The notes below the pieces were generated by a model. It made no database searches. It worked only from the letters and a program-made list of their open reading frames with translations, and was not told where the DNA came from. The position numbers and the translations under genes were made by a program. A DNA stretch of 64,000 nucleotides from Cladochytrium replicatum. Lineage: Eukaryota > Chytridiomycota > Chytridiomycetes > Cladochytriales > Cladochytriaceae. The DNA lies in NCBI GenBank assembly GCA_025526935.1, contig JAHLKD010000075.1:236413-300412 (forward strand). The letters run 5' to 3'. The first letter of the stretch is position 1; the number at the start of each line of letters is the position of its first letter. This document shows positions 9,703 to 58,706 of the stretch, piece after piece.

Positions 9703-11010
9703 TCAGAAACGCAGCCTTTGAACGCCATTGACTTTCTTCGATATTCGATGTGATAACCAGTTGACAATTTCAGTGTGGCCACGAGCTTTCGCCTTCACTA
9801 CCGCTGATTCGCTCCACGTAACTTCCAATCCGCTCTGATCCCACCATTCTAGAATGTCCAGTCTCCCGTTTGCGCTCGCCGCTTCGATCCCCAGTTTACT
9901 CCACATGAGCTCAAGACCACTCTGCTTCCACCACTCCAGCACATCGGGTCCGGAAGCCCGGTCCATTGCAAGTGTACTCCACTGCAGCTCGAGCCCGCTT
10001 CGAACCCACCAATCGAGAACGTCAACATGTCCATTTTTGCTTGCACCGTCCATCGCCCACTCACTCCACTCAGGATCCTCGACTCCGCTCTCTTTAGTCC
10101 ACCACTCTAGCACATCGACATGTCCGTTTTCGCTCGCAATGTCAATTGCGACGTTGCTCCAGCGCAGAGGCTTAAGCCCACACGTTCTCCACCACTCGAG
10201 CACGCCGACGTGGCCATTCTCGCTCGCGCCGTCCATGGCACCATCGCTCCACCTTAGCTCTCCGACAAGCCCGCTTCGTTTCCACCATTCGAGCACATGC
10301 ACGTGTCCGCGTTCGCTGGCGAGGTCCATGGCGCGATGTGTCCATTTCAGCTCCGCGCCGCTCTTCGATCGCCACCATTCCAAAACGTCCAGACGGCCCT
10401 CGCGACTTGCATTGTCGAGCGTCTCGTCTCCGCACATCATGATTCCTGCATCATCGTTAAACTTTCGCCACCACTCGAGCACGTCGACGTGCCCGTTCTC
10501 GCTCGCGCGCTCGATTGCGTTCAGAGTCCACTGCAACTCGAGCCCGCTGGATCGCCACCATTCAAGCACGCGCGTGTGGCCGTTTGCGCTCGCAAGGTCT
10601 ATTGCGGTGTCGCTCCAGAGCAATGCATGCGCGTCGAAATTGGATGTCCACCATTCGAGGACTGTGACGTGGCCTTTGGCACTGGCGAGGTCCATGGCTG
10701 CGGGGGTGTAGATGAGCCTTGGGCGACCGGATCTTCTTCGGCCCGTGAAGATGTGGAAGGTGAGGAGGTCGACGAGGCCACGGCTACTTGCGCAATCCAT
10801 CGAGAGGGAGGGGATGAGTGAGAGGAGCTCGAATTGGACATGGCGGCGACGTAGGTGCGTTGCGATCTGGAACGCTTGGATGGGGCTGTTGCAGTCGAGG
10901 CCGAGGGAGAGTAGGATCTGGTCGACGGTTTCGATGGGGAGCATCTGACGGTCGTCGACGTCGTCGTCGTCGTCGTTCGGAAATTCGTTTCCCCTGCAAA
11001 ACATTTGCAT
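9703..11010 (-). CDS. Ankyrin-type repeat protein with VLEWW signature, 435 aa
   Basis: Residues 1-60 include an Asp-rich stretch and LPIETVDQILLSL, which resembles the start of an F-box-like helix. From about residue 100 there are ten to eleven repeats of roughly 33-35 residues. Each contains A-ENGHVDVLEWW followed by a short loop with a conserved W. This is a divergent ankyrin repeat in which the usual outer-helix end is replaced by EWW. Such repeats mediate protein binding; no catalytic domain is present. The ATG at 11010 is the longest in-frame start. TTTTGCAG just inside it resembles a splice acceptor, so the true first exon may lie upstream (11020-11140 is open in other frames). A decayed relative lies at 34.9-36.3 kb. 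Confidence 0.8.
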   Translation of the reverse strand: MQMFCRGNEFPNDDDDDVDDRQMLPIETVDQILLSLGLDCNSPIQAFQIATHLRRRHVQFELLSLIPSLSMDCASSRGLVDLLTFHIFTGRRRSGRPRLIYTPAAMDLASAKGHVTVLEWWTSNFDAHALLWSDTAIDLASANGHTRVLEWWRSSGLELQWTLNAIERASENGHVDVLEWWRKFNDDAGIMMCGDETLDNASREGRLDVLEWWRSKSGAELKWTHRAMDLASERGHVHVLEWWKRSGLVGELRWSDGAMDGASENGHVGVLEWWRTCGLKPLRWSNVAIDIASENGHVDVLEWWTKESGVEDPEWSEWAMDGASKNGHVDVLDWWVRSGLELQWSTLAMDRASGPDVLEWWKQSGLELMWSKLGIEAASANGRLDILEWWDQSGLEVTWSESAVVKAKARGHTEIVNWLSHRISKKVNGVQRLRF

Positions 11011-14774: not shown

Positions 14775-16060
14775 TAATTGCGAGATGTAGTTTCAGAACG
14801 CGAAGAACAGGCTAAAGTAACAGTAGCTTCAAAGTCTGCAGCAGGAAGATTAGAACGAAGATAATGAAAAACTGCAGGATCATGAGTAATTCGCAAGAGG
14901 TGAGCAAATCTTTTGTGAGCAGCTTTTGCTACAGCAACTTGACGTTGCTCAAGTGATTGAACAGACCCAGAACGAAGCTGCCCAGGATCAAAACGAACAG
15001 CAGCATTGGAACCACTTCAGGTCCCTGTGGGGACTTCTATTTCTCGTCCAGTGGCCCATGGAGCAATTGATTCCGCATTTCAAATTATAGTTGATTTTGT
15101 TGAGGCAGCAGCGGTTCTGACATTGGGACCACCAACACCTCGTCGTAGAGCACCAGTGACCACCCTGAGATTGCTTTGTTGCGTAGTAAGGCTCGTTCAG
15201 CATTCCTTGACTATTATTCCCTCTTGCACCACAATTCTTCTGACCCTCCTCTTCCTTTTCTAAGAAGTCTTGGCGGCCAACGTGATAGTCACAAAGCATT
15301 CAAGTCAGCCTCATCTGCCTATGGTTCTATAGCTGCTAGCTTTGCTCCCCTTGCATCTCCCCACCCTCATGCACTAGCAATTGCTCCTCCATGCTTCCCT
15401 ATTTTGTCAATCTTGAGGCTTCTGCAGTATCGTGTTGGACGTTTGTTTTATCACCCCCGCAAGCAGTGTTGTAGCTGCCGCACTGCAACTCTATCTAGAT
15501 CTCTTGTTTCAGAATGTTTGCGTCTTGACCTATTGTTGCCTCCTGTTCCTGTTCCTGTTTTACAACTTCTGCTTGATGTTGCAATTGATAGCCTTCGTCC
15601 ACTTCGCATTGTCAACCCAGCATTTGTGGATCTTTAACGTTTTCTTTTTTCATTATGTACTACTCACCTGTTTTTTTGGCACCTTAGCAGTATCTGACGG
15701 GTAGCAACAGGTTTGAGTTTACATTCTCTGTTTTGCTTTGTTGCTTTTCCTTATGCTGCGTGCGCTTCCCTTATCTCTACCCAATACAACTAACCTCTCT
15801 ATCAATGTTACTAGCAATAGGATTCTGTCCACCCGGACACTTTCTCAACTCATTGACGTACTTCAGTTATCTCTACCCAGTACAACTAACCTCTATCAAT
15901 GTTACTAGCAATACGATTCTGTCCACCCGGACACTTTCCAAGAAGTCACAACGGAAGTTCTGTAACAAACAATTTCTACCACGACAGACCTCGAGAGCTG
16001 TGCTTTCTGTGCACCTGGACACTTAGAGTCGGTAAACGTTCCAGCCACACCACAGCAAAA

Positions 16061-18483
16061 ATGGACGCCGCCTTTGTTAAACCAAAGCGTAAGGCAGCGT
16101 CCGACGCAAGCCAAAGACTGGTAGACAGTCATCCGCTTGACACACGGAAGCGAAGTCTGCCAGCCCCCCAAATTTCAGAGGCGTCCAGCGAGGGGAACAG
16201 CATGCAGGACAAACGCAGACGTGTATCAGGACACGGTGGCAACAACAGCGCTCGAGAGCCGAGCTCCACATCTTCTTCCAATGACTCCAGCGAGTTGGGC
16301 CTGGCTTCTCAGCATGCACCAGAGCTTCCTGCCGACGTTAGTTTTGCTGACTCTTCAGTGCGACAGGAGCCTGCAGCTGGATCAGTTCAACCATCAATGC
16401 TTTCATCAGACGCAGATGTTGATATCATGTCGGACTGTAGAGGTAGTCGGGGCGGCATAGTGAAGGATTACTATAAGGTTGATAATGGTCTGAGAACATG
16501 TTTGGTTGCGAAATGCAAGTGGAGCCAGAAGGTCGATAAGACGGGATCAACAAAAAACTTCCTCCGGCATCTGAAAAACCACCATGGAAGTATTGCCAGG
16601 TTGCTTGGACTGTTGGACATCGTCCCCAAGGGACAACAGACACTGAATTTCGGCTTGCAGGAGAAGGAGCAAAACTTTGTGTTCAATCCAGACGTAGCGT
16701 GGCGGTCGATTTTGGACTGGATTGCTGCAGACAATCAGGCTTTTACTGTTGTGGAGAACGAGTTCTTTGTCAGCATGCTGAAGACTTTTCAGCCAAACTA
16801 TACACCAAAGACGGCAAAAGCAGTGAAGCAAAAGGAGATGGATCTTTACGATAGGCAGAAGGAGCTTGTTAAAGGTCTGATTGTTGGTGCGCCTTCAAAA
16901 ATATCAATAACAGCTGACTGTTGGACATCGAAGAACCAGATTTCTTTTCTTGGAATTACTGCCCACTTCATCACTAAAGAATGGGAGCCGCAGGACTTGC
17001 TGCTGCAGATGATTCCGATGGTTGGAAAGCATGAAGGCGTCGCCATGGCTAGTCAGCTTGTCAAGTGTCTGGATGAATTTGGCATGCTTTCGGGTGAACG
17101 CTTATTGTGCATTACAACCGACAACGGTTCAAACAACTTTACCATGAGTGCTAAGCTGGAGACGCTCTTGGAAGATAGGGATATTGCGTGGTCTGCAGAA
17201 ACTCAACACATGCGGTGTATGGCACACATTATCAATCTTGCAGCAAAGGATTTTATCGATACATTCGCACCCGCGGGGGACACAGTCGCAAATGACGATA
17301 ACTCCGGCGTTAATGTCATAAACCTTCTTCGACGGCTAGTCAGAGGAATCCGGTCTTCCCCAAAACGACGAAGCTCATTTATTGATTCGTGCCGATTTGT
17401 GAAACTGGTTCCTCTATTACCAATTATCGATGTGACAACTCGCTGGAATAGCTCGTTCTATATGGTCAAACGAGCCTTACAGCTACGAGAGGCAATGGAC
17501 AAAATATGCTGGATTGAAGATTCTTTGAAAGATTGGTCAATAAATCCAAAGCAATGGGAGGTCCTACAGAAGATCCGGGATGGTTTGAGTGTTTTCGAGG
17601 TTTTATCAAAGGCAATCGAGGGGTCTAGATATCCAACACTTCCGCTTGTTATTCCATTTTACAACGATCTTATCGATCAACTGGAGGACCTAGAGGAGGC
17701 AGAATTGGATGAAACTTTCACCAAAGCATTTCGAAATGCACTAGATAAGCTGAGAATATAAACCGCTAAGAGCCCGTGTTTAGCAGTTGCTACGGTACTC
17801 GATCCTCGTTTTAAGGATCAATATTATCGATTTTCAAAGCCTTGGGAGAAAGATGTAGGAAGGGATCAGGTCACCCTAGTGCGGAAAGTCTGGGAGGAAT
17901 CGTATAAGTCACGGAAAATCAAGAACAGTGGTGCCGATGTTTTTGGAAACACGCCAGAGCGTCGACACGATTCGAGCGGAGCTTCCGGTGATAGACAGAA
18001 AAAAACGGACGCTGAACGCTTGAGAGCCATTAGATCCGTTTTCATCTGGCAAGAAGAGATTCCTGAGGAAAAAGATGAGCTGGATCGCTATCTTGGCGAT
18101 CAGGTACTCCGCGGTATTTATTCTGATGGGAAGCCAATCAATATTATGGACTGGTGGAAGACCGTTGGAAGTGTGAACTTTCCAGCCCTAAGCCAGATGG
18201 CAATGGACTATTTAGGAATACCAGCAACAAGCGCTCCAGTCGAACGAAAGTTTTCAGCCGGGGTTGATTTGGTACTCGCAACCGCCTTGCTCCAAGAACA
18301 ATAAATGCGTTGATGTGCCGTCATGACTGGTTGCATCAATTGAGTGCTGAAGAACCATTCAAAAATGATTCCCTAGATTCAAAAAGTGATGTTAGTGAGG
18401 ATTTTGTAAAGGTGCATAATTTTGGCGAGGATTTTGATGTGGTATTAGAGTTGGAAGCAACTGATGATAACCCACTCTTTTAA
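16061..18483 (+). pseudogene. hAT transposase, copy 1, disrupted
   Basis: The frame opens at ATG 16061 (MDAAFVKPKRKAAS) after a leader shared with copy 2. It contains a BED-type zinc finger (CLVAKC ... HLKNHH), the first catalytic Asp region (ITADCWTSKNQ) and the second (CITTDNGSNN). Relative to copy 2 a few bases are missing at about 17758, creating a stop (17759-17761). The remainder, including the hAT dimerisation region SAPVERKFSAG, continues in another frame from about 17767. A second frameshift just after that motif is shared with copy 2. Copy 1 cannot make a complete transposase. Confidence 0.88.
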
Positions 18484-38419: not shown

Positions 38420-40669
38420 ATGGACGCCGCCTTTGTTAAACCAAAGCGTAAGGCAGCGTCCGACGCAAGCCAAAGACTGGTGGACAGTCATCCGCTTGAC
38501 ACACAGAAGCGAAGTCTGCCAGCCCCCCAAATTTCAGAGGCGTCCAGCGAGGGGAACATCATGCAGGACAAACGCAGACGTGTATCAGGACACGGTGGCA
38601 ACAACAGCGCTCGAGAGCCGAGCTCCACATCTTCTTCCAATGACTCCAGCGAGTTTGGCCCGTCTTCTCAGCATGCACCACAGCTTCCTGCCGACGTTAG
38701 TTTTGCTGACTCTTCAGTGCGACAGGAGCCTGCAGCTGGATCAGTTCAACCATCAATGCTTTCATCAGACGCAGATGTTGATAGCATGTCGGACTGTAGA
38801 GGTAGTCGAGGCGGCATAGCGAAGGATTACTATAAGGTTGATAATGGTCTGAGAACATGTTTGGTTGCGAAATGCAAGTGGAGCCAGAAGGTCGATAAGA
38901 CGGGATCAACAAAAAACTTCCTCCGGCATCTGAAAAACCACCATGGAAGTATTGCCAGGTCGCTTGGACTGTTGGACATCGTCCCCAAGGGACAACAGAC
39001 ATTGAATTTCGGCTCGCAGGAGAAGGAGCAAAACTTTGTGTTCAATCCAGACGTAGCGTGGCGGTCGATTTTGGACTGGATTGCTGCAGACAATCAGGCT
39101 TTTACTGTTGTGGAGAACGAGTTCTTTGTCAGCATGCTGAAGACTTTTCAGCCAAACTATACACCAAAGACGGCAAAAGCAGTGAAGCAAAAGGAGATGG
39201 ATCTTTACGATAGGCAGAAGGAGCTCATTAAAGGTCTGATTGTTGGTTCGCCTTCAAAAGTATCAATAACAGCTGACTGTTGGACATCGAAGAACCAGAT
39301 TTCTTTTCTTGGAATTACTGCCCACTTCATCACGAAAGAATGGGAGCCGCAGGACTTGCTGCTGCAGATGATTCTGATGGTTGGAAAGCATGAAGGCGTC
39401 GCCATGGCTAGTCAGCTTGTCAAGTGTCTGGATGAATTTGGCATGCTATCGGGTGAACGCTTATTGTGCATTACAACCGACAATGGTTCAAACAACTTTA
39501 CCATGAGTGCTAAGCTGGAGACGCTCTTGGAAGATAGGGATATTGCGTGGTCTGCAGAAACTCAACACATGCGGTGTATGGCACACATTATCAATCTTGC
39601 AGCAAAGGATTTTATCGATACATTCGCGCCCGCAGGGGACACAGTCGCAAATGACGATAACTCCGGCGTTAATGTCATAAACCTTCTTCGACGGCTAGTC
39701 AGAGGAATCCGGTCTTCCCCAAAACGACGAAGCTCATTTATTGATTCGTGCCGATTTGTGAAACTGGTTCCTCTATTACCAATTATCGATGTGACAACTC
39801 GCTGGAATAGCACGTTCTATATGGTCAAACGAGCCTTACAGCTACGAGAGGCAATGGACAAAATATGCTGGATTGAAGATTCTTTGAAAGATTGGTCAAT
39901 AAATCCAAAGCAATGGGAGGTCCTACAGAAGATCCGGGATGGTTTGAGTGTTTTTGAGGTTATATCAAAGGCAATCGAGGGGTCTAGATATCCAACACTT
40001 CCGCTTGTTATTCCATTTTACAACGATCTTATCGATCAACTGGAGGACCTAGAGGATGCAGAATTAGATGAAACTTTCACCAAAGCATTTCGAAATGCAC
40101 TAGATAAGCTGAGAATATATTACTCAATCGCTAAGAGCCCGTGTTTAGCAGTTGCTACGGTACTCGATCCTCGTTTTAAGGATCAATATTATCAATTTTC
40201 AAAGGCTTGGGAGAAAGATGTAGGAAGGGATCAGGTCACCCTAGTGCGGAAAGTCTGGGAGGAATCGTATAAGTCACGGAAAATCAAGAACAGTGGTGCC
40301 GATGTTTTTGGAAACACGCCAGAACGTCGACACGATTCGAGCGGAGCTTCCGGTGATAGACAGAAAAAAACGGACGCTGAACGCTTGAGAGCCATTAGAT
40401 CCGTTTTCATCTGGCAAGAAGAGATTCCTGAGGAAAAAGATGAGCTGGATCGCTATCTTGGCGATCAGGTACTCCGCGGTATTGATTCTGATGGGAAGCC
40501 AATCAATATTATGGACTGGTGGAAGACCGTTGGAAGTGTGAACTTTCCAGCCCTAAGCCAGATGGCAATGGACTATTTAGGAATACCAGCAACAAGCGCT
40601 CCAGTCGAACGAAAGTTTTCAGCCGGGGTTGATTTGGTACTCGCAACCGCCTTGCTCCAAGAACAATAA
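38420..40669 (+). CDS. hAT transposase, copy 2 (open to a 3' frameshift), 749 aa
   Basis: Cut-and-paste transposase. A basic, Ser-rich N terminus with a nuclear-localisation-like KPKRK is followed by a BED zinc finger at about residues 140-190 (CLVAKC ... HLKNHH). The RNase-H-like core has Asp in ITADCWTSKN (about residue 290), Asp in CITTDNGSNN (about 355), and the third acidic residue, Glu, in SAPVERKFSAG (about 730). Trp motifs typical of hAT (MRCMAHIINLAAKDF, TRWNSTFYM) are present. The stop at 40667 follows soon after SAGVDLV. Continuing in another frame to 40848 gives RNRLAPRTINALMC and HDWLHQL, the usual hAT C terminus. One base therefore seems to be missing near 40638, and copy 1 has the same defect. 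Confidence 0.88.
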   Translation: MDAAFVKPKRKAASDASQRLVDSHPLDTQKRSLPAPQISEASSEGNIMQDKRRRVSGHGGNNSAREPSSTSSSNDSSEFGPSSQHAPQLPADVSFADSSVRQEPAAGSVQPSMLSSDADVDSMSDCRGSRGGIAKDYYKVDNGLRTCLVAKCKWSQKVDKTGSTKNFLRHLKNHHGSIARSLGLLDIVPKGQQTLNFGSQEKEQNFVFNPDVAWRSILDWIAADNQAFTVVENEFFVSMLKTFQPNYTPKTAKAVKQKEMDLYDRQKELIKGLIVGSPSKVSITADCWTSKNQISFLGITAHFITKEWEPQDLLLQMILMVGKHEGVAMASQLVKCLDEFGMLSGERLLCITTDNGSNNFTMSAKLETLLEDRDIAWSAETQHMRCMAHIINLAAKDFIDTFAPAGDTVANDDNSGVNVINLLRRLVRGIRSSPKRRSSFIDSCRFVKLVPLLPIIDVTTRWNSTFYMVKRALQLREAMDKICWIEDSLKDWSINPKQWEVLQKIRDGLSVFEVISKAIEGSRYPTLPLVIPFYNDLIDQLEDLEDAELDETFTKAFRNALDKLRIYYSIAKSPCLAVATVLDPRFKDQYYQFSKAWEKDVGRDQVTLVRKVWEESYKSRKIKNSGADVFGNTPERRHDSSGASGDRQKKTDAERLRAIRSVFIWQEEIPEEKDELDRYLGDQVLRGIDSDGKPINIMDWWKTVGSVNFPALSQMAMDYLGIPATSAPVERKFSAGVDLVLATALLQEQ

Positions 40670-44219: not shown

Positions 44220-46950
44220 ATACGTGCCTGAAGGTACTTCAGCCTGAACTCAAAGTAGGAATTTGCGCTAACAGCAACAAACCAACACGCGAAGTGGTAT
44301 GGGCTAGCGAAAACAGACGTCTCAGTGCATGATAACAAAAACGCTCGAGTACCTGAAGCTGAGCAGTGGAAGGCCGAGTAAGTGCTAGACCAAACTCAAG
44401 TGAAGGTCTAATAAAAGACAAAAACAACAACCTGGCAACACGAGGAGCAGACCCACCAAAGTACGAGACATAAGGTGCAAAAAGATGCAATGAGGCACGA
44501 GCTTTCTCTAAGCAATGATCAATAGTTGCAGCAAGATCAAACCCTGCAATAGTAAAATAGTGACCAAGGTATCTAAATGAAACCTCGACAGGGAGGGCAG
44601 AGCCATGAAGCTTCAAGGGGGTGGGTAACCGTTGAGAAGATAACACAGCACACTTTGAAGGTGAAAACACAAAATGAGAAGCTACAAGCAAAATCTTCAC
44701 AAATTTTCAATGCACGTTGGGCTTGCTCAGGGGTGGCAGAAAACAAAGCTATGTCATCAGCAAAAAACAACGAATTGAAAACAGGAGTGTTATAAGAAAA
44801 CCTAGCAAGATGAGAGGATTCACGACGAAGGAGCTGTGCTAAAGGATTGATGAAAACTGAGTACAAGAACGGAGACAAAACAGAACCTTGAAAAAGACCT
44901 CGTGGAAGCGAAAACAAATCAGAAGAACGATTCTCTATAACAACCTGAGAAGAACAACGATCAAACATACTCATCAAAACAGAGATCAAACGGTTTGGAA
45001 TTCTGGGAAATTGACGAAGACGTTCCCACAAAAGAGGCCTATGCACAGTATCATACGCTGCTTTAATATCTAAGAAAGTAACACAATAAGGCAGAGCAGT
45101 GCGGGAAGCCTGTCGAAGGGTAGCATCTAATGCAAAAACACACTCAACACCTGAACGATTGGCCTGGAAACCAGCTTGGGCGGGATCAAGTTTACCAACA
45201 TGAGCTGCAAGCATAGGAAGAAGGGTACGCTCAAAGATTTTTCTATCAACATTGGTTAAAGTAATGGGGCGGTACTGACTAATATCACCAATGGAGCCCT
45301 TATTCTTCCAAACAGGTAACAACAAGCCAGCATTCCAGGCAGAGGGCGACAAACCTGAACGGAAAATAGCGTTTGAAAGTTGAACAAAAAGGATAGCAAC
45401 ATCAGAAGCTAACGGCTTAAATAACTCAGCTGGAATATGGTTTGGGCCAGGAGCAGAGTTGTTTGGGGAAGAACGAATAGCACAAACAAAGTCACTAACA
45501 CTAACTGACACAGAATCATTCAGCGCATGTAGACGAACGTGTTCTGCACTGGCAGAGGATTGTGCAAACTGAGTCTGATAAACGGAGGCAAAGTGATTGC
45601 GATAATGAGATAAAGAGGCAGGATCAGACAATAAACCACTTGCAGCTGAGCACCGTTGATGACACCTACGCGCGGTGGAAAGAACTTTGCTAACCTCAGT
45701 TAAAGAACTAGGAGAAGAACTAAACATATTGTCGCCAGAAGCCTCTCGAGCTCGCTGAGAAAGAGACCAAGTACGAAAAGCTTTGACACGCTCACGCGAT
45801 AGCCAGTCACGCTCCAAGCGGCAATACTCAACTAAACCAGGATCAGGATCATCACAGGAAGAAACAGCTAAATAGTGCTTATGAGCAAGTAAGTAGCTCC
45901 GTCGCAAGGCCACTAAATGCGGTGGCAACAATGGCAGGGCAGGGCGACGGCGAACTAAACTGGGGGGTCCAATGACACAAGCAGCACACGAAGTAACAAA
46001 GGACAAAATAATATCCAATGCAGAGTCAATAAATCCCTGTGCAACATCCACAGACATTTGGGCAAAGGCGGGAGCTTCTAAATTGGACTGAGCGCAGCAT
46101 TGACATCAGCAAGGGTGGGATCAAAAAACAAATGTCCCACATCCTCCATTGCTTGAAAGACAGCAGGTTCACGCAACAGATGAGCAGCCCAGCGCTTGTG
46201 GGGGGGTGCAGCAGAGGGAGCGCTGGCATTGGGAGGAGCAAAAGAAAAAACAGCTGTAACCGGAAAATGGTCAGAAGCCCAAGGCATAAACTCGCCTGTC
46301 GGCTAGACGACTATGAACTATGTAAGAAATAGGATCACATTGAAGCAGAGGATTGACAAACAACAAATCGATAATGGAGTCACCATTGCGAGAAGAAAAT
46401 GTGGGGTTATGACAGGAAGGGTGCTTAACTAGAGAGAAACTAGCGGCAGAAATAATTGCTCAAACAACCTACCCCTATGATTTGAAGAATGATCACCAGT
46501 AGCTAAAAAACGGGCATTGAAATCGCCCAACAAAAGAACAGGGCACGGAGACGACGGGACATGTTGAGGAAGTGAAGCAATAAACTCTTCAAGGAAGGGG
46601 TCCTGAGCAATACCACACGGAGGCAAATAATACCCTCCAACCAAAAGCCCACGAAATGTAAACCATAGAGAGGTGCCACCATAACTAGAAACGAGACGGA
46701 AATCAGAAGCTCTACAAAGACTGCGATTGATCAAGACTCCCACACCAGCCCGTCGTGTACCCGATGACCCAGGAGAAAAACGAGTGTCAAAAATCAAATC
46801 TGGAGAAGGCAGCGGGTCTAAAGGAAAAAGGTGTGTTTCAGTCAGGAGCAGAAAAACAATGTGATTTGCGCGCATAAAACGAAACAGTGAATCAAGAACT
46901 CCAAAGCTCAAATTGCGACAATTGAAGGTACCAACTCGAACACTAATCAT
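44220..46950 (-). pseudogene. LINE-I ORF2: endonuclease and reverse transcriptase, frameshifted
   Basis: ORF2 begins at ATG 46950 (MISVRVGTFNCRN), overlapping the end of ORF1. The endonuclease shows LLTETHLF, GVGVLINRSL, YYLPPCG and LLLGDFNAR. The frame breaks at about 46430 and resumes in others, with the SDH block (WASDHFPVTAVF, about 46280). From 46057 to about 44690 there is a long frame with RT motifs: SQYRPITLTN, VTFLDIKAAYDTVHRPLLW (first Asp), LPRGLFQGSVLSPFLYS, and SLFFADDIALF (catalytic FADD). A further shift at about 44690 leads to RYLGHYF and FIRPSLEFGL. At least three frameshifts prevent translation. The RT class is that of EEP-endonuclease LINEs; no RNase H is seen. Confidence 0.88.
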
Positions 46951-48346
46951 TGACGAAGATGGGTTGAGCGAGGCTGACGCGCAATCCCGCGGGCACTGTC
47001 CAGCACAGTTCCTGAGCATCCATGGGGAGCTGACCACGGACATACAGGAAAATAGCAGGATCAGTAACTGAACTGAGGATATGTGCATATCTCTTGTGGA
47101 CAACTTCCCTGACCGCAGCCTCCCGCTGCTCCAAAGGCAGAGTAGAGGCTCGGCGAAGAAAGTCAGGGTTTGATTCGTCAGTGGAAGCTTCCTGGGTGGA
47201 GAAGTGCGCACGGAGAGCAATTGCGGTTGAGCGAATACAGATAAAGGAAGCAATGTTGCGACCAACGAAACTGATGTGGCGGATACCACGCACCACCTCA
47301 TCGCCCAAGAGGGCCCTCAGCATGGTCCGCACAAAGCCGAGCCGCTGTCTCATGATGTCCTTGATGTACACAGTGGTCAGATCATCCACACGGGCCTGAA
47401 GATCAGCAGGTGGGGAGACCAGTAGCGGAGAGGTCGGAGGATAGAATACGACAGGCCGAGGGCCATGAAGGCTGACATTCGAAGTGGGGTCACGACCAGC
47501 AAGGGCAGTCCTGACAGCTTCTGTACGAGATTCAGCACTCAGTGTGGGGAGACTCTCAAGCACACGGGCACAGGCATTGGCAGCAGCAGCGGCATAAGTG
47601 CGTGGACCACCACGATGTCCACGTGGGGCAGGTCGACTAGACGGGGGGCGAGGGCCAGGAGCACCAGAGTTCCCAAGATCGTCCTGAATTGAAGGATTAC
47701 CATGCAGTTGTCTAGGGGGAAGGCACACAGGCGCAGCCACATCATCATGGCGGGAGACAGGGGCACCCCGAGGTGAAGGCGAAGGCAGCGGCCTCCCAAA
47801 GCGACCCACCAGATCCTCGGCCATATCACGACAAACACTAAAAAATTCAGCAGGAGTGTCCCTCGGCAAGTGTGCAAGCATAGGATCCAGCATCGCCAAC
47901 GGATCAAAGGTTGCACAAACAGATCGCATCTGAGTGAGAACGACACGGAGATCGGCCAGAGATGCAACACTCGAGGGAGCAGCCACAGCAGCAAGAACCC
48001 GGACACCCGGCAGATGTGATCGGGAACGAGAACGGGAGCGACCACGGGGCAATTCATGTTCAGCAGGTCTTTTGGCCTGTCGGTCACGTGATCGGAAGTC
48101 ACGTGATTCGGCATTTTCATCCTCCCCCATATTCACATCATCGGCCCAGTGAATTGGAGAGGCAGGAGCGGAGAATGGAAGCTGTGGAGCGGAATTTTCA
48201 ACAGAGGAGGCACGGGGGTGCGAACGGGCCTCAAAAATCACGGTGCCACCAGAAAGTCCATCAGGGGGCACAGCGGGGGGTGCGGCGGGCGGCGCGGCAT
48301 GCGGCGCATCAGGCGGCTGCGCATGCGGAGCGCTGGGAGGCGGCAT
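46943..48346 (-). CDS. LINE-I ORF1 protein, 467 aa, intact
   Basis: ORF1 proteins bind the element RNA and form the retrotransposition particle (family knowledge). The ATG at 48346 lies just 8 bases inside the (CT)n leader. Residues 1-40 are Pro/Ala-rich. Next come an acidic-basic stretch (ENAESRDFRSRDRQAKRP) and an Arg/Ser-rich stretch. A helical segment follows (LADLRVVLTQMRSVCATFD), then a second Pro/Arg-rich linker. The folded C-terminal domain contains VRGIRHISFVGRNIASFI and HKRYAHILSSVTDPAIF and may be RRM-like. The stop codon overlaps the ORF2 start. The only undamaged gene of the element. Confidence 0.8.
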   Translation of the reverse strand: MPPPSAPHAQPPDAPHAAPPAAPPAVPPDGLSGGTVIFEARSHPRASSVENSAPQLPFSAPASPIHWADDVNMGEDENAESRDFRSRDRQAKRPAEHELPRGRSRSRSRSHLPGVRVLAAVAAPSSVASLADLRVVLTQMRSVCATFDPLAMLDPMLAHLPRDTPAEFFSVCRDMAEDLVGRFGRPLPSPSPRGAPVSRHDDVAAPVCLPPRQLHGNPSIQDDLGNSGAPGPRPPSSRPAPRGHRGGPRTYAAAAANACARVLESLPTLSAESRTEAVRTALAGRDPTSNVSLHGPRPVVFYPPTSPLLVSPPADLQARVDDLTTVYIKDIMRQRLGFVRTMLRALLGDEVVRGIRHISFVGRNIASFICIRSTAIALRAHFSTQEASTDESNPDFLRRASTLPLEQREAAVREVVHKRYAHILSSVTDPAIFLYVRGQLPMDAQELCWTVPAGLRVSLAQPIFVND

Positions 48347-48840: not shown

Positions 48841-49278
48841 AGGGCAAAGCGAAATAGAAATCAGAGATCTTAAAAACTCATTCCTGTGACTACCCGTCAG
48901 GCTCTGCTCAGGTGTCAAATACAGGTGAGGGATAAAGAAAAGAAAGAACACTCAACATTGTGAAGAATATAACAGCAAATCACTGGGTCAAACGAAGGTC
49001 AGAAGCTGAGGTCATCGAAGGGGCATATAATCGAGCGAGATGCAACAGCGTAGAAAGATGAGACGGATCAACAAGATTGCGGTAGAACAATGCAACAGCT
49101 GGCTCAGACGTAGTAGCAATCGCCTTGGCACTTCGATGGAGCAGAGAGTCATAGCGTTGCAGAGAGTCGGAACTGTCAGAATACGAAGGAGGGGACACAT
49201 CCAAATCAGTGATTTCTCGACCAGGTATGTGTTTGCGGATCAGATCAGCAGCATAAGAACGACAAAGAAATTTAGTGT

Positions 49279-49360
49279 GTCACTTTGGCCGAGTGGTTAA
49301 GGCGGCGCCCTGCTAAGGCGTTGGGTTCTGCCCGCGCAGGTTCGAATCCTGCAGGTGACG
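49279..49360 (+). tRNA. tRNA-Ser (anticodon GCT)
   Basis: Type II tRNA: acceptor GTCACTT with AGGTGAC, D arm GGCCGAGTGGTTAAGGC, anticodon loop CTGCTAA giving GCT, a long variable arm (TTGGGTTCTGCCCG) and T loop TTCGAAT. 82 nt with the discriminator, no intron. Its last nine bases are also the start of the duplication that follows. Confidence 0.93.
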
Positions 49361-49671
49361 AGTTGATTAAGTATTCGTCTTAATCTGAACTTCGAAATTG
49401 TAGACTATTTTAGTTACTACATCTTCAAGCGTGACTTTAAACATTGTACACTATTTCAGTTAGCTTATCTTCAAGGATGAGCTTTTGCCGAGGTTAGCAA
49501 AGTTCTTTCCACAGGTGACGAGTTGATTAAGCATTCGGCTTAATCTGAACTTCGAAATTGTAGACTATTTTAGTTACTACATCTTCAAGCGTGACTTTAA
49601 ACATCGTACACTATTTCAGTTAGCTTATCTTCAAGGATGAGCTTTTGCCGAGGTTAGCAAAGTTCTTTCCA
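49352..49671 (+). repeat. 160-bp tandem duplication including the tRNA-Ser 3' end
   Basis: Units 49352-49511 and 49512-49671 both begin CAGGTGACGAGTTGATTAAG and end GGTTAGCAAAGTTCTTTCCAC, with only a few differences. The first nine bases are the tRNA 3' end. The last about 20 bases are LINE ORF2 sequence, continuing uninterrupted to the right only after unit 2. Confidence 0.85.
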
Positions 49672-50140
49672 CCGCGCGTGGGTGTCGTCAACGGTGTTCA
49701 GCTGCAAGTGGTTTATTGTCTGATCCTGCCTCTTTATCTCATTATCGCAATCACTTTGCTTCCGTTTACCAGACTCAGTTTGCACAATCCTCCGCCACTG
49801 CAGAACACGTTCGTCTACATGCGCTGAATGATTCTGTGTCAGTTAGTGTTAGTGACTTTGTTTGTGCTATTCGTTCTTCCCCAAACAACTCTGCTCCTGG
49901 CCCAAACCATATTCCAGCTGAGTTGTTTAAGCTGTTAGCTTCTGATGTTGCTGTTCTTTTGTTCAACTTTCAAATGCTATTTTCCGTTCAGGTTTGTCGC
50001 CCTATGTCTGGAATGTTGGCTTGTTGTTAGAAGTTTCTCCTCCAGACTCCCTCTTTAGCCCTGCACTTGTGGATCTTTAACGTTTTATTTTTGGTACCTT
50101 TGCTTTTGGACTATTTTTTAGAATTTGTCTAAGTTTTTTA
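49672..50140 (+). mobile_element. Chimeric LINE fragment
   Basis: 49660-50030 is nearly identical to the LINE-I ORF2 region between endonuclease and RT (SDPASLSHYRNHFASVYQTQ, FVCAIRSSPNNSAPGPNHIP), in plus orientation. After GMLACC the sequence switches to the last codons and 3' UTR of LINE-II (AGAAGTTTCTCCTCCAGACT). The RT core is missing. Confidence 0.75.
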
Positions 50141-50221: not shown

Positions 50222-53200
50222 ATGGACCACTTTCTGCGAATGTTCCAACCTCCCGCACCGACGTCAAATGCTGACCATCCCGCCAGAACTTCGTCTATTC
50301 ATCAGCCCAGCCCAAACGTCTCGTTCTCGGCGTCTGGACCCGGCATTCCTCGTCGAAGCGAACAACTGTCCTATTCAATCTGCCATTGTCATGAATGTAC
50401 TGCAGCAAACCGCGAAAGGGAGTCTCGCTGGCTCGAGCTGGAATCACGACGCCTGGAGATCGAGTCTCGCCGATTGGACCTTGAACATGAGATCGCGCTC
50501 AAGCGACTGGAGTTGGACAGGGAAGCTGCGATGGCCAAGATCACGACAGACGCGCAGATTTCCGCTGCCTTGACGACTTATGCGGACGCGATGTCGAGGA
50601 TTGCAAACTCCAATGATCGCCAGATCGAGATTGGCACGAAGTTTGTCACGTTGCCGGTTGCTGCACCTGTAACGGTCTCGGCTCCAGCTTCTCGTGCTCC
50701 CCAGTTGCTTGGCGGAGATGCAAAATCTTCTTTGCCTCATTCAGAGTCGAAGAATACTGCCGCGCCCGTTGTAAATAATGTAAATTCATCAGTTTCTTTC
50801 CCAGTCACTTTCTATTCTTACTGCTGGTTGAACAGCAGGTTGGCTTGCTGATTAACTGATCACCACTTTCTCTAATATCTCAAACTATGTTGTTTATACA
50901 GGGATCAAATGTTGAAAGAATATTCCGCAGGAAAGCGTGACGAAAAGGATCTTGATCGTGCCGGAGCGTAAGTGCGATGTTAATGAAGGCTGAAGGCTCG
51001 CTGATCACGAAACTACTAGGCTGGATCCACGAGCTGCGTACCGGTGGCTGAGAGATGCAGGGTTTCCTGCCTGGCTCGACGTTGCTGAGCTAGGTGACGG
51101 TGAGCCCCTATTTGGACAGCTCGTCGAAGCTCTCAAACAAGGTAGCAGGGATTAAAAAAAGTTCTAAATGTATGAACAAGGGCTCACATCCCATCAGCTG
51201 CGGTGGTCGTCGCTTTTGTTAGCGACGAGTACTCACGGAGCGCAAACTGTAGGAAGGAGTGGTACTTTGCCAAAACCGAACTTGGGCTCCCTGTGATACC
51301 CGTCATTGGTACATATATCAAAAAGTCATGAGGGGGATAGAAGGCTGACCAGTGCGGTTAAAGTTGGTTCCCACCCAACTCCGGGAAAGAAGCCGGAATG
51401 GCGATTATCTGAAATCGGGTTTGATATGGGTAACCTTCTGTAAGTGAAAGGAGCTTTTCAAAATTCGGAGTTTTCGTTATCTATTTATTTTCATCGTTCA
51501 GATACATCGACGCACGTAACGCCAATGACGTGGAAACGATCAAGGGCCAAATCCTCCGTGCGGTGTCGAAATACACGAGCCAGATAACCGATGCTTTGAC
51601 CATTGAAAGCAAGTCAGAGTCGAGTACACTCTTAGATGCCATCCGGAAAAACACCCCGGATGACTGTAAAAAATGGCTTGAGAAACTTTCCACTGGTGCA
51701 GCCCAGATAGCTGCTCTCACCGAAAAGGATCCTTACGATCATAGCACACCAATTCACGTAGCTGCCGCTTTGGGCTACAACCTGGTCATTTCCGCCATCC
51801 TCTCTGTACTCAACAATGGAAACCAATCCTTGAGTTATCTTCTCGAAACGAAGGATGCTTCTGGTGCCACGCCGGTGTTTCTCGCTGCCTCTAACGGCCA
51901 TACCGGTGCTGTTAAAACGCTGCTCAAATTTGGCGCGAACGCTTCGGCTGAAAACCGTGACCTCCGAACCCCCCTTCATGCCGCCTCAGGGTACGGACAC
52001 ACCGATATTGTCCGCGAACTACTCCTTTCTGGTGCAGTTGTTGATGCAAAGGATGAAGACGGTGTGAGTCCAGTGTTTTTCTGTGCGCGGACTCCGCCGT
52101 CTTGCTTGGACTGTGCGCATTTGCTGGTTGGACCAGTCGGGAAGGCGAACCCTGATCTTCGCGACTGGTGGGGCCGTACGCCTGTCGCTGCAGCTGTTCG
52201 CACTCGTCGTAATGACGTGTTGCTGGTGTTGCTAGAGGCAAATGCGAATCCTTCGATACTGGACGTGAAAGGGTACTCACCTCTTGCTGTTGCAGCAGAA
52301 GTTGGAAATGCTGACGCGATACGATTGCTGATCAAATACGGTGCGAGGCCTGATGAAGGTGGAAAGGGGGCAAACGCGCCGGTCCATGTTGCGGTGCGGT
52401 CGGAACAACTTGAGGCTCTCCAGGCCTTGCTGGACGGCGGTGCGGGAACTGAAGTCGAGGATAGCGGCTACTGCACGCCCATCATTGTGGCTGCGAGAGA
52501 GGGATTCACTAAAGTGGTCCAGCTGTTGATCAACAAGGGAGCTAACGTCAATCACTATCCCAACGGCGATGGGTTTAATGGAACCGCGATCTATTATGCT
52601 GCGTATCACAACCACATTGAAGTAGCAAGGCTGATTTTGAGCCAGTCTGGAGTTGATCTGGAGCTTGCTTACTCCGATGGACAAACGCCTTTGATTGTCG
52701 CTGCTGAGCGGGGTCATGCGGGGATGGTGGAACTATTGCTGGCTGCTGGTGCAAATCCAAATGCTACAACGAAAGACGGCGAGGATTTCCTGTATTTTGC
52801 AGCGTTCGGTGGACTTAATCAAGTCGTGTTGCGCGCAATAGAACAGGAGCCCCAGCTTCTGAATCGCAAAGATACTGGCAATACCCTTCTTCATTCGGCA
52901 GTGTCAGGTTATCATTTGGGGCTTGTTCAAGCCCTCGTCGCAAAAGGGGCGGACGTCAATGCTCGGAACAACGAAGCAAAAACATCACTACATTTGATTG
53001 CTGACGTTTGGAGAGGCAGCCGAATGGACAAGACCGACGGGATTAAGGAAGATGGAATTGAGATCTGCAAAGCTCTGCTTTATGCTGGAGCGGAAGTTGA
53101 TGTAGCTAGTGAAAGCGGTTTCAGAGCTATACAATACGCTGCGCTGATGGGAAAACAGGACATAGTGGGGGTACTTCTTGATGCCGGAGCTGATCCACGA

Positions 53201-55972
53201 GTTGTTGACGGTGAGGGTCGTTCACTTTTCGACTTATGCATCGTAGGCTCCTGTTATACGATCCTTGATCGTTTGTTGCTGAGCGGTGTAGCGCAGTGCG
53301 ATATAGTGAATGAGAGAGGGTACAGACCGCTATTCACTGCAACGTCGATGACAACAGATGTCTCTGTTTTCCGAGTGCTACTCAAGCACGGGGCAGATGT
53401 CAATGCGAAAAACGGACCTGGTGCGCAGGGAGGCGATGACCGATTCGAGACTGCGTTGCATAATGCTGCGAGGTTGGGCAAGGTGGAGATAGTCAAAGCG
53501 TTGCTTGAGGCCGGTGCTGATCCAAATGCGATCGATAACAATGGACGTACACCACTTTTTACTCTTGGGGAGAGTTCATGGAATAGAGTCGCGGACGGAG
53601 TTAAGCCCTTGATAGTCGATGCATTGGTGAGAGCAGGTGGGAAAGTTGATGTCGAGGATAAGGAAGGAGTTCAGGCAATGGACTTGCTGATGGAAATTCG
53701 GCCTTATGATCCTCAGTCGTCGCCCGCGGACAGGCTCGCTATGGTGCGAATTTTCCTTTCACACGGTGCTAGTGTTGGTCGAGCGAACAAGCAAGGACAA
53801 ACTTTGGTGATTTCAGGATCCGCAGCAGGATTGAAAGACATCGTGGAGCTGGCGATTGAAGGCGGCGCAGAGATCAGCGCGGTTGACTTTGATGGTGCGA
53901 CTGCGCTGCACCACGCAACAAAAGCATGTGCGATCGATGTTATGCAGCTTTTGCTCAGCAAGGGGGCGAATGTCGAAGCGAGGGAATGGAAAGCCGGTGA
54001 AACTCCGCTGCATCGTGTTCCTGTCAGTGCAAGTAGATCATGGGGTGGTAAGACTCCCGAGGAATGCGTTGCAGCAACAAAGTTGCTGTTGGAAGCCGGT
54101 GCTGACGCGAGTGCGGCGGTTATTTCTCATGGTTGGACATTGCTTCATGACGCGGTATCTGCGGGAAGCTCGGGAGGAGGTGTTGTTGAGTTGTTGTTAC
54201 GAGCGGGTGCTGATGTGAATGCTGTGAATACACTTGGATGGACACCCTTACTCCTGGCGGCCAAGAGTGAGGTACCTTCGTACGTTAAACGGTTGCTGGA
54301 CTTGGGTGCGCGAATGGATGCGGTGGAGAATAGTGATGGGCACACGGCTGCCCATTGCGCGATCAGCTACAGGCGAATTGAAAATCTGAGCCTGTTGTTG
54401 GATAACGGCCACCCATTGGAAATCAAAGATAAGCTAGGTCGAACACCGCTTTGCCTTGCCGCGGAGTATGGTTGGGCAGTTGGTTGTCGAGTTTTGATTG
54501 CAGCAGGGGCAAGCTGTCAGGCGAGCACTGACGTGGGGCTGACCCCGTTGCTTCTTGCTGCAAAACGAGGGTCGAAGGAATGTGTCGAAGTACTTTTGGA
54601 AAGGGGATCAAGTCGAACGGAGCGTGGAAAGAAAGGAGAAACTTTTGCCAATTCCTGTGCAGAGGGTGGTTTGGTGGATTATGTGAAAGGAATGCCGACC
54701 TCCGACCTAAATGCGAAGACGGAGGATGGAAAATCACTTGCAATGTTTGCATCAATGTCGGATAAACTGGCTACAAGAGGAGGCAGACTCGAGATTATTA
54801 GTTGGATTGGTGATTTGAATCCACAGGCACTACGTGAACGAGATAATTGCGGACGATCGGCAATACATCATGCAGCAGGATCAAATGAATTGGATATCGT
54901 AAAGAAGCTGGTAGAGCTGAGTGCTGATGTGAATGAACCGGATATAGAAGGATGCACTCCCCTGATTCTCGCAGCAGGACATAGCGAGCCAGAACTTGCA
55001 CTGGCACTTCTGGAACTCGGGGCAGATGCAAGCGTAGTCACAAGCGATGGTACATCGGCTCTTCTGCGACTTTGCAGCGATGGATGCCAGGGCGATGAGT
55101 GTATTGATCTTGCACAGCGGTTGCTGGAAGGCAACTGTGACCCCAACATTTCTTCGAACTCAACTGGATCCACATCGCTGATTGCGGTTGCAAAAGATAG
55201 CAAACAGCGAGAGAATCTTTTATCAGTTATTTTGGCAGCAACGGGTGACGAAGCTCTGAATGCCACGGACAAAGACGGTCGTTCTGCACTTTGGTATGCA
55301 ACCAGCTGGGGTCAAGGAAGCTCGCTTATTGCACGCGGTGCGAATCCAACTCAAAGCGACCATCGTAAGATCGCACCAGTTCATATGACTTCCGAACACC
55401 GAGTTTTAGTCGAAGCTGGGGCGGATTTGGACATTACTACAGAAGATGGATGGTGTGTGCTGCATCTCTCAAGGTCCGCTCAAACTGTTCAATTAGTGCT
55501 TGACTCAAAGCATGGTGGGAGTGTGGACGCCCGTGACGCTCGAGGACGTACACCCCTCCATACCTTATGTGGAGGGGAGGACGTTGACTTCGTGGGACTC
55601 CGGTTTGATCTGGAAAAGTCGGCGAGGATTATGCTTGGAGCTGGAGCAGATGTCCATGCAACAGACATTTCTGGGAGAACACCTTTGTTCTATGCGGTTG
55701 GTAACAAGCAGGTGGTAGAGATTTTGATCAAGTCTGGTGCAGACATCAATGCAACGGATCTGAATGGAGACACAGTGTTGCATTTTCTTGCGAAGCTCAA
55801 GAAATACAACGAGCGCTTTATGTGCGAGATCGCTGCACACCTGTATCGAATTGGAGTGGATTTCCATGTGAAGAACAAGATGGGAGAGAGTGCAGCTGAG
55901 CATGCTCGTAAGGAGGGAAGAAAGGGATTGGCAGCGTTGCTTGAGTTCATGGTTCAGAATTCGGCGGTCTAG
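50222..55972 (+). CDS. TIR domain-ankyrin repeat fusion protein, 6 exons, about 1820 aa
   Basis: Exons: 50222-50838, 50902-50967, 51020-51141, 51198-51308, 51364-51439, 51502-55972 (5463 nt, all GT-AG, phases exact). Residues 1-100 are low complexity; about 85-150 is a charged coiled coil (ERESRWLELESRRLEIES). The TIR-like domain spans about 192-352, split over five small exons: strand A FPVTFYSYCWLNSR, AAYRWLRDAGFPAWLDVAEL, GEPLFGQLVEALKQA, VVVAFVSDEYSRSANCRKEW, LPVIPVIVG, and a terminal IDARNANDVETIKG helix. E289 (51257-51259) in NCRKEW occupies the place of the catalytic Glu of NAD-cleaving TIR domains. From about 385 to the end there are 35 or more ankyrin repeats (GATPVFLAASNGHTGAVKTL type). 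No NB-ARC or NACHT domain. Such proteins resemble sensors with a signalling TIR, but that role is inferred. The first ATG of the open frame is 50222; an earlier exon is possible. Confidence 0.86.
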
Positions 55973-56215
55973 TTGTTTATTCAATTGTTTTTCGGCTATT
56001 TTTCTATGCTATGATCCAAGTCGAATACATTTCCGAAATATTTTTCACTTTCTGATTCTTTGCTTACCCGAAGCGACTGGACACTTCGAGTGGCCTCGGC
56101 GACGGCGGGCAGCCAAGGAAACTGCAGGGCACCAAATCTGGATCCGGGAGGTCTGCGCTTAATGCATTTTCTCCTTTTGCAAACCTGCAGAGGCTTCGCA
56201 ACTCGTCATCATAGC
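55973..56215. other. Intergenic region
   Basis: Short space between the TIR-ankyrin gene and the coiled-coil gene. Nothing specific seen; upstream exons of the next gene could lie here. Confidence 0.4.
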
Positions 56216-57072
56216 ATGCCACAAAATGCAACGAAGCTTTCAACTGAGCACTCATCAAGAATTGGCCAAGACGCTCGAATCTCTTTAGCGAAAAGTCGCA
56301 GAAGAGACAGATCGCATTTTCAGCTCAGGATCACTTTTCGCTCGGTTTCCAAAACGATTGATGGTTATCAGGCAGATGAATCCGTGAACCGAATCCAGAA
56401 TCGCAAGATGCAGAAGAAGTTAGTGGCATTGACGAGAGAGCTTGCTGATTTGATGTACTCTCATGAGAAAAAGACTATCGAGCTGGTGAAGAGAAATGCA
56501 CAGTTGAACATCGAGCTCCAGGTGGGGTCAAATCACAGCTTTTGGACGAGTCGATTGATTAAGATCTCAACCATTTTCTGGAATTAGGTGGCGGACTCTG
56601 CTCGACGACTGTTGTATGAGAGGAATAAAACTCTTGGCGAGCAACTATTGGCAGGACAGAAGGCAAAGGTATTATCTGGCAAGTATGGGTACCTATAACG
56701 AACTCTCACCACCTTTAAAGCTCAGCAAGTTGCGGTACTATCTGCTACAAAAATCGAGAGGGAGAAAGCGGCGCTCGAGGAAAAGGACAGGCGACGAGAC
56801 CGAGCGGAGAACGACAGAGCTACAGAATCTCAAAAGTTCAAGCAAAGTATTGCGCAGCTTGAAAGGTAACTGCTGACCACTCAAAAAGGATGTAAGGACT
56901 GACAAACGGTTGCAATAGAGTAAGCCTAATCGAGAGTTGGCAACATTTACTATCGGAAACGAATGGAGCCTTGACGGCAGAACTCGATGAAGCTTCACGG
57001 AAGCTTCAGCTATCGGAGCGATCACAATCGCAACGCGCAACTTCAGCTGAAAGTCTCCGACATTGCAGTTGA
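56216..57072 (+). CDS. Coiled-coil protein, 4 exons, 226 aa (model provisional)
   Basis: Exons: 56216-56521, 56588-56668, 56726-56865, 56919-57072 (681 nt). The product is almost entirely helical and charged: KMQKKLVALTRELADLMY, EKKTIELVKRNAQLNIELQ, SATKIEREKAALEEKDRRR, and a last exon SLIESWQHLLSE with LTAELDEASRKLQLSE. Heptad-like spacing of Leu/Ile suggests a continuous coiled coil. The third exon starts after CTCAG rather than after the nearer AAAG, because only this keeps the heptad frame. The stop at 57070 may be bypassed by splicing at GTTGATC; further coiled-coil-coding stretches follow downstream. No motor or other domain seen. Confidence 0.5.
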
Positions 57073-58706
57073 TCAATCAACACTTTGAAGGTTGGTAAAT
57101 TCTCTCTTTCGAGGCAATTCATAAATTTTTGTATGAAGAAACCTGGGAAACTCCTTAAGTACAAGCAAGCAAATGGATCCCTCCAGTGATATCGTGGCTG
57201 CTAAACAAATCTATATTAGAGTAATGAAAAGAACAAGGAAGAGAACCGCGCACTTACTCTTAAAGTCGCGAAACTGAACCAGTTGCTTGATCGGATTGGC
57301 GAGGTGGAGGTCGTGAACGCTCGGATGAGCGCTGGGCGAGCGGCGTGGACGACGTGTTCGTTGGTGAAGAAGGGGATGCTATTGGAGTCGAGTCGCCACA
57401 TTAACTGTTTCGGCTTGTAGCGAGGCAGAGGTTGGAGATTGCGGGGTGGAAAGAAAAGATAGGAGCGGAGGCGGCGGGCAAGGCTGTAGCGAGCTCGCGG
57501 ATTGCATTTCTGGAAGATATGGTTAGGAACATTCTGCCAAAACAACATGTCGAGGAATTAACATTGCAAGCATATGTAGTTAAAAGCTCCATACCACCAG
57601 CTGCCCGTGGAGTATGTCGATTTGGTGTTGCAGCAAACGGCCGTCCCATTCTTTGCACTTCAGCAGCCGTGATGCACTCAGCGCCTCTGCCTGATGCATG
57701 CTAGCTTTCGCCTCGCTCTTCTGAACCTGTAAAAACAACCCAAGCAACCAATGAATTCTTATCGGCCTTTTCCAGAGTGCGAATGACGCGGAGATGGTGT
57801 TGAGCAAGGATCAGAAGAGCACCCAACTGATGGTACTGCCATTGAACTGGAAAGTCTGGTGGCGGGCTATCTTTCCGAAATTGTAGCTTTGCAATTGGAA
57901 ATCAAGTAGATGACGTTGAAGTCGCGAGAAAAGAAATTCAGGTTCTAAGCAGCCCAGGGCTTTGGAGGTTGAGCGTGATCGGCTAGCGAAAGTCTTTGCA
58001 AGCAATTTCTTGATACTCTTGACTTGCTGGTTAGGGATTCAATAAATATGCTCGAGGAGTGAGATGTCATCCAAAGCTTTCTTGGTGCGTACAGACAGAT
58101 GACACAGATGATTTGCGATTTACACAGTCTGACGTTTACATCTTCAGGGTGCAGTCTTCGTTACGAACCGGGAAGTCCGGCGTTGATCCTTCCGAAGTTT
58201 GGCAGAAGTTTGGGAGACCACCAACCTCCCTTCTTCTTGACCCCATCGCCCCTCCCCTTTCCCTGCTTTTCCCTGCTGATGACTGCATTCGTAGCGAGGT
58301 CGAGCTTATCGACCACACGCCAATGCAGGACCAGGATGTGAGACAGGGGAGGTCGATGAGGAGTGTGGTAGAGTAGATTGGGGTTCCGATCTGTGAGCCG
58401 TTTGTCCTGGATTGGATATCTGCTCTCGCTGTCTAGAGAACGCTGGTGATCGTTGAGAACCGGATCGGAGCAAGCAATAGCACCGAACATAAGTGTGGTG
58501 CGAGCGTTATTGCCTATCGGCAAAAAAAAAGAAACACGGTTAACCGGCAATTCGATCAAGTCAAGGTAGGTCTATAAAATAAAGCAATCCAACAAATAGA
58601 ACGCCGGTACATGACTACAGCACATGTTCACTGCAAAAACGCACAACGACTAATTCCGCAAAACGAGACTCAGACTGACAGTCCACACCTGCCAACGACC
58701 ACTTGT
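57073..58706. other. Coiled-coil remnants and unassigned sequence
   Basis: Plus-strand frames at about 57225-57330 (ENRALTLKVAKLNQLLDRIG), 57432-57600 (IAFLEDMVRNILPKQHVEEL) and 57835-57910 (LESLVAGYLSEIVALQLEIK) again look like coiled coil. Stops separate them, and no consistent splicing joins them. They may be decayed or wrongly resolved exons of the preceding gene. 58050-58706 shows no gene, but a plausible 3' region of the next minus-strand gene. Confidence 0.4.

Follow-up and report, generated by a model that had tools for sequence, protein, structure and literature searches.

Gene structure and domain composition

The analysed stretch, hereafter the window, comprises 64,000 nt of the chytrid Cladochytrium replicatum (assembly GCA_025526935.1, contig JAHLKD010000075.1, positions 236,413 to 300,412 of the forward strand). 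It contains a predicted six-exon gene in which a TIR domain is fused to a long array of ankyrin repeats (Table 1; all coordinates are those of the window). The exons join in frame through five introns, each GT-AG and 52–63 nt long, to give a predicted product of 1820 residues, and the spliced protein matches the Pfam profile TIR_2, so the gene proposed in a preliminary description of this DNA is real. That description had the TIR domain spelled out by five short exons; assembly by splicing holds, but the domain actually begins late in exon 1, continues through four short exons and finishes early in exon 6. The acceptor of exon 5 is the AG at 51362-51363, since choosing the nearer AG at 51351-51352 would put the rest of this exon off frame by 11 nt. 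Exon 6 is a single open frame of 1489 codons.

The spliced protein was scanned against a profile library as three pieces covering its full length, with matches taken at E ≤ 1. On the TIR piece, TIR_2 scored 54.7 bits (E = 1.8e-14) against a cut-off of 28, which places the domain in the TIR superfamily. In the search of the unspliced genome, the sole window exon listed scored only 22.9 bits with the same profile, and this difference argues that the proposed splicing assembles the TIR domain. A profile search had been suggested as a check on the preliminary assignment, and its outcome is favourable for TIR_2, with PF01582 remaining below its own cut-off.

In the last exon, Ank_2 matched with an E-value of 9.1e-153, and 19 separate stretches were matched by Ank and 25 by Ank_4, which identifies the product as an ankyrin-repeat protein. 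The earlier count of 35 or more repeats is plausible from the length of the array, but a home-made ankyrin hidden Markov model (HMM), built from a consensus and grown on the window protein itself, gave 31 matches, with only 22 above 5 bits. A single-sequence structure model covering 700 residues from the start of exon 6 features helix pairs that repeat from residue 81 onward (mean predicted local distance difference test score, pLDDT, 66.3; predicted template-modelling score, pTM, 0.55; residues 1–78 below a pLDDT of 50). TIR_2 followed by a long ankyrin solenoid on the spliced protein confirms the fusion that had been reported. The reported lack of a nucleoside triphosphatase (NTPase) domain also holds across the three pieces, in which no NTPase, SAM, ARM or HET domain was matched. 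The protein therefore has neither the central NB-ARC or NACHT NTPase of an NLR (STAND) protein, nor the ARM and SAM domains of SARM1, nor a HET domain. Contig C75 carries none of the 14 NB-ARC or 30 NACHT matches found in the genome at E ≤ 0.01.

A conserved glutamate in the TIR domain

The preliminary description placed E289 at the position of the catalytic glutamate of other TIR domains. An alignment of 19 TIRs was assembled from the window sequence and 18 of the 30 loci L023–L052; the other 12 loci were set aside, being near-duplicates or interrupted by stops, or having matches that ended before the E289 column or differed around it. Two columns are invariant in all 19 sequences, a Tyr and the column of E289. 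At E ≤ 0.001, the profile built from this alignment matched 33 PDB sequences, among them Cat1, the plant TIR proteins RPP1, Roq1 and RPS4, SARM1, tir-1 and AbTIR. Glu occupies the E289 column in each of the five PDB alignments displayed, which are those to Cat1, RPP1 and a TIR domain protein and those to two nearly identical chains from a single entry; SARM1 is not among these five and was matched only by the profile. The placement of E289 is thus upheld by an invariant column that aligns, by profile, with the Glu of solved TIRs. We take the Glu in this column to be catalytic in relatives that include RPP1 and SARM1, and for the window protein it is a match of position. The window TIR therefore has its Glu where TIR NADases have theirs, and may share their activity. 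A possible lead is that animal and protist TIRs may display a similar SYCW-NS / DPR / W-SE pattern.

Table 1. Predicted exons and TIR features of the TIR-ankyrin gene, in window coordinates.
Feature	Position	Strand	Remarks
Exon 1	50222-50838	+	charged N-terminal stretch with 7-residue period (~residues 62-110), then first TIR strand FYSYCWLNSR (residues 197-206)
Exon 2	50902-50967	+	66 nt; insert separating TIR strand A from helix A
Exon 3	51020-51141	+	122 nt; helix A, strand B and BB-loop region of the TIR
Exon 4	51198-51308	+	111 nt; TIR helix C region, including E289
E289 codon (GAG)	51257-51259	+	catalytic-type glutamate column
Exon 5	51364-51439	+	76 nt; C-terminal part of TIR (PTPGKKPEWRLSEIGFDMGNLL)
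Exon 6	51502-55972	+	end of TIR, then ankyrin-repeat solenoid up to the stop codon
Pfam TIR_2 match span	51039-51529	+	residues 235-340, across exons 3-6

Decayed copies of the gene

Three related loci are present in the genome, on contigs C17 (L054), C49 (L053) and C1 (L059). The C17 copy retains SYCWLNSR and a GTAAGC donor at the position of intron 1, followed within ~20 nt by the start of exon 5, whose acceptor AG is not kept. Between LL and YIDAR, a donor and an acceptor are placed as in intron 5 and lead into ankyrins. The frame of this copy is broken and the TIR core (exons 2-4) is gone. At ~2170-2200 of this locus, exons 2-4 were apparently lost as one block, from immediately past the donor of intron 1 up to where exon 5 starts, while the flanking exons remain. 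The C49 copy is a TIR fragment with stops that reads uninterrupted through the junction of exons 3 and 4 (intron 3), and ankyrins were not found in this 9 kb locus. The C17 and C49 copies support the proposed splicing and, together with the sequence of the gene itself, the predicted exon structure of a single intact gene.

The C1 copy shares 73% DNA identity with the window gene at its N-terminus and 65-67% amino acid identity over the main stretch of exon 1, but is broken and lacks both the TIR core and a large part of the ankyrin array. The neighbouring downstream gene (56101-57500) is also found on C1, with 73.6% DNA identity over 1.4 kb, which indicates that gene and neighbour were duplicated together in one piece. 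A simple counting method applied to 519 codons aligned between the window and C1 copies gave dS 0.77, dN 0.29 and dN/dS 0.37; dS is high, and the exclusion of stop codons and of pieces below 44% identity lowers dN. This ratio suggests, without proving, past constraint on a gene whose window copy is still open.

TIR repertoire and genomic context

The preliminary description regarded TIR domains as uncommon in fungi, which is not the case at least in this genome. Across the assembly (50.5 Mb, 198 contigs), TIR_2 gave 97 matches at E ≤ 1, 56 of which score at least 28 bits on their own; these matches were counted as exons, so the number of genes is lower than 97. A TIR_2 match lies upstream on the same strand, at a distance of at most 2 kb, for 8 of the 14 NB-ARC and 20 of the 30 NACHT matches (28 in total).

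Nine reading frames taken from TIR, NB-ARC and NACHT loci were also scanned. L015 combines TIR and Sel1 within one reading frame, while the two frames from L062 (contig C103) correspond to NB-ARC-TPR with a weak upstream TIR piece (24.9 bits, below cut-off). NB-ARC-TPR was also found at L060 and L061, and NACHT accompanied by a nephrocystin-3 N-terminal type domain at L063 and, next to a TIR match, at L046; the frame scan of L013 and L036 gave no match. On contigs C61, C63, C80, C71, C103, C21 and C45, TIR-NACHT and TIR-NB-ARC genes occur in clusters, and several of these genes are open for more than 1000 codons; together they form a large NLR-like repertoire. When the ankyrin HMM was run over loci L001-L053, ankyrins were found near a TIR only at the window's own locus and on C17 (L017). 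These loci span ~1.5 kb on each side (9 kb for L053) and represent 30 of the 97 TIR_2 matches, so other TIR-ankyrin genes may exist in the genome.

Several further matches bear on the nature of the organism. Chitin_synth_2 gave 73 exon matches, the best of which covers positions 4-525 of 527, in a family that also matches 4 of 14 bacterial or archaeal controls. A radial-spoke profile matched seven times in the genome and in 0 of the 14 controls, and an RPC2 fragment scored 196 bits against one solved RPC2 and 183 bits against another, which we take to be the yeast and human structures. Chitin synthases, a radial-spoke protein and RPC2 fit, but do not prove, a flagellated (zoosporic) fungus.

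A prokaryotic or viral origin was considered and rejected: among prokaryote genomes, only one of 86 candidate stretches matched (L066), and on inspection this match is fortuitous, as it overlaps other genes on a contig of Chloroflexi. None of five candidates matched among viral contigs, and a phage search returned three records at E 0.6. The prokaryote and viral scans were seeded by short exact peptides, which restricts their reach to close relatives, and a more remote bacterial source may still exist. Bacterial defence families were likewise not assigned: the NCBIfam matches FxsC (8.5e-5), ThcB4 (0.0016), retron TIR (0.036) and IF-6 (0.16) all fell far below cut-off, and the PADLOC matches SAVED_TIR (1.5e-6) and two Aga TIR models (0.0014 and 0.0028) were weak.

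Elsewhere in the window, a reverse-transcriptase element resembling a long interspersed nuclear element (LINE; labelled from its reading frames) lies upstream of the gene at 44239-48346 on the minus strand, and two stretches of this element, of 319 and 80 nt (96% and 91% identity), occur in opposite orientation immediately 5' to the gene at 49642-50036. The region 49278-49671 holds a tRNA-Ser (GCT) followed by a tandem duplication of 160 nt, 98% identical, that begins at the 3' end of the tRNA. Inspection by eye also revealed an ankyrin-like protein with many LEWW...ASENGHV repeats at 9703-11010 (minus strand) and two very similar transposase-like open frames at 15899-17761 and 38420-40669 (plus strand), which resemble hAT elements.

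Proposed function and alternatives

We propose, with a probability of roughly 0.55, that the gene encodes a cytosolic, NTPase-free TIR-ankyrin protein, receptor-like in nature, that belongs to a TIR-based intracellular defence repertoire and whose TIR domain would cleave NAD+ (nicotinamide adenine dinucleotide). In its putative role as a sensor arm, the ankyrin solenoid would bind a non-self or damage-associated protein as the presumed trigger, or would keep the TIR inactive. Release or clustering would bring TIRs together, and the assembled TIR would cleave NAD+ and so stop growth, kill the cell or generate a nucleotide signal. Such a protein would work without the STAND ATPase switch found in the NLR relatives that this genome encodes. 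A broader and distinctly more tentative extension is that zoosporic fungi possess an enzymatic TIR immune layer with an ATPase-independent branch, in which a giant ankyrin solenoid would directly gate a TIR NADase, as an equivalent in fungi of SARM1-type control that would have evolved separately from NLRs.

Several observations weigh against an NAD+-cleaving receptor. On the spliced TIR piece, PF01582 scored 18.4 bits against its cut-off of 21.3, and when only the window TIR was used to search the PDB, Cat1 at E 0.11 and an unrelated acetyltransferase at E 0.44 were the sole matches. Some TIRs are known to serve as scaffolds. The N-terminal stretch is charged, with a seven-residue period and, by eye, hydrophobic residues two apart, and had been described as a coiled coil; as its crude a/d heptad score was equalled by 899 of 1000 shuffles, a coiled coil is not demonstrated. 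In addition, all three related copies carry stops or frameshifts and two (C1 and C17) lack the TIR core, so the family is both being lost and being kept.

The strongest alternative is that the protein is a non-enzymatic adaptor whose TIR docks on the TIRs of TIR-NLR or TIR-only proteins, with the ankyrins as scaffold or decoy, and we regard this as possible but doubtful. The genome offers dozens of TIRs that could act as partners, and the insert of ~22 residues encoded by exon 2, after strand A, would suit such a role, as it is absent from all 12 of the 18 aligned genomic TIRs that reach that place (the other six begin after it). An adaptor would not need the Glu, however, so the invariance of this column across the 19 aligned TIRs counts against it. 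It is improbable that the window holds one still-unbroken copy of a vanishing TIR-ankyrin family, with little present function: the broken state of the other copies is what would be expected, but the window copy retains its long exon 6 frame and all five GT-AG introns, and the dN/dS, measured against a copy that has since become broken, suggests that constraint was prolonged. A mis-spliced model, in which a separate TIR gene adjoins a separate ankyrin gene, is very improbable; the joining of the exons is predicted from genomic sequence, a further point against the proposed receptor, but the TIR_2 match extends into the ankyrin-bearing exon and the C17 copy has the identical order of exon 5, intron and exon 6 into ankyrins.

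Comparison with known systems

The predicted NAD+-cleaving receptor can be set beside the TIR-NB-ARC and TIR-NACHT genes that this genome also encodes, which share with it a TIR_2-type domain and a C-terminal repeat domain but possess the NTPase that it lacks; at the one TIR-NB-ARC locus scanned (L062), the repeats are TPRs rather than ankyrins. SARM1, which, like tir-1, is matched by the genome's TIR profile, is an NTPase-free sensor-effector with a catalytic Glu. The window protein differs in that it has no SAM or ARM domains and its TIR precedes the repeats.

TIR immunity has been studied in plants, animals and bacteria, while the fungal literature consulted here centres on HET-domain proteins. 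These are described as remote TIR relatives with a proposed TIR-like effector role (PMC4986451), a role also proposed for the window protein, which matches TIR_2 and not HET. The same survey found no NLRs in chytrids (PMC4986451), and TIR-NLRs are mentioned in Chytridiomycota in a later one (Wojciechowski et al. 2022, PMC9815663). A genome with dozens of TIR_2 matches and with TIR-NB-ARC, TIR-NACHT, TIR-Sel1 and TIR-ankyrin combinations would lend itself to asking whether the TIRs of fungi act as NADases and which threats they counter.

A fungal TIR-ankyrin fusion was not found in the literature searched, where coverage of subscription journals was thin. The preliminary suggestion of an undescribed type is nevertheless not supported. 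Ankyrin repeat-TIR proteins, listed as uncharacterised and grouped apart from TIR proteins with a nucleotide-binding domain, are reported from oomycetes (Lapin et al. 2022, PMC9153377), and proteins of choanoflagellates that lack a transmembrane domain pair TIR with ankyrin repeats (Richter et al. 2018, PMC6040629). Both combine the two elements of the window protein but come from organisms other than fungi, and the likeness is one of published description. Given these proteins and the TIR-NLRs of Chytridiomycota, the class of architecture is not new: the TIR-ankyrin fusion is already known outside fungi, and the TIR repertoire of this genome is the more interesting fact.

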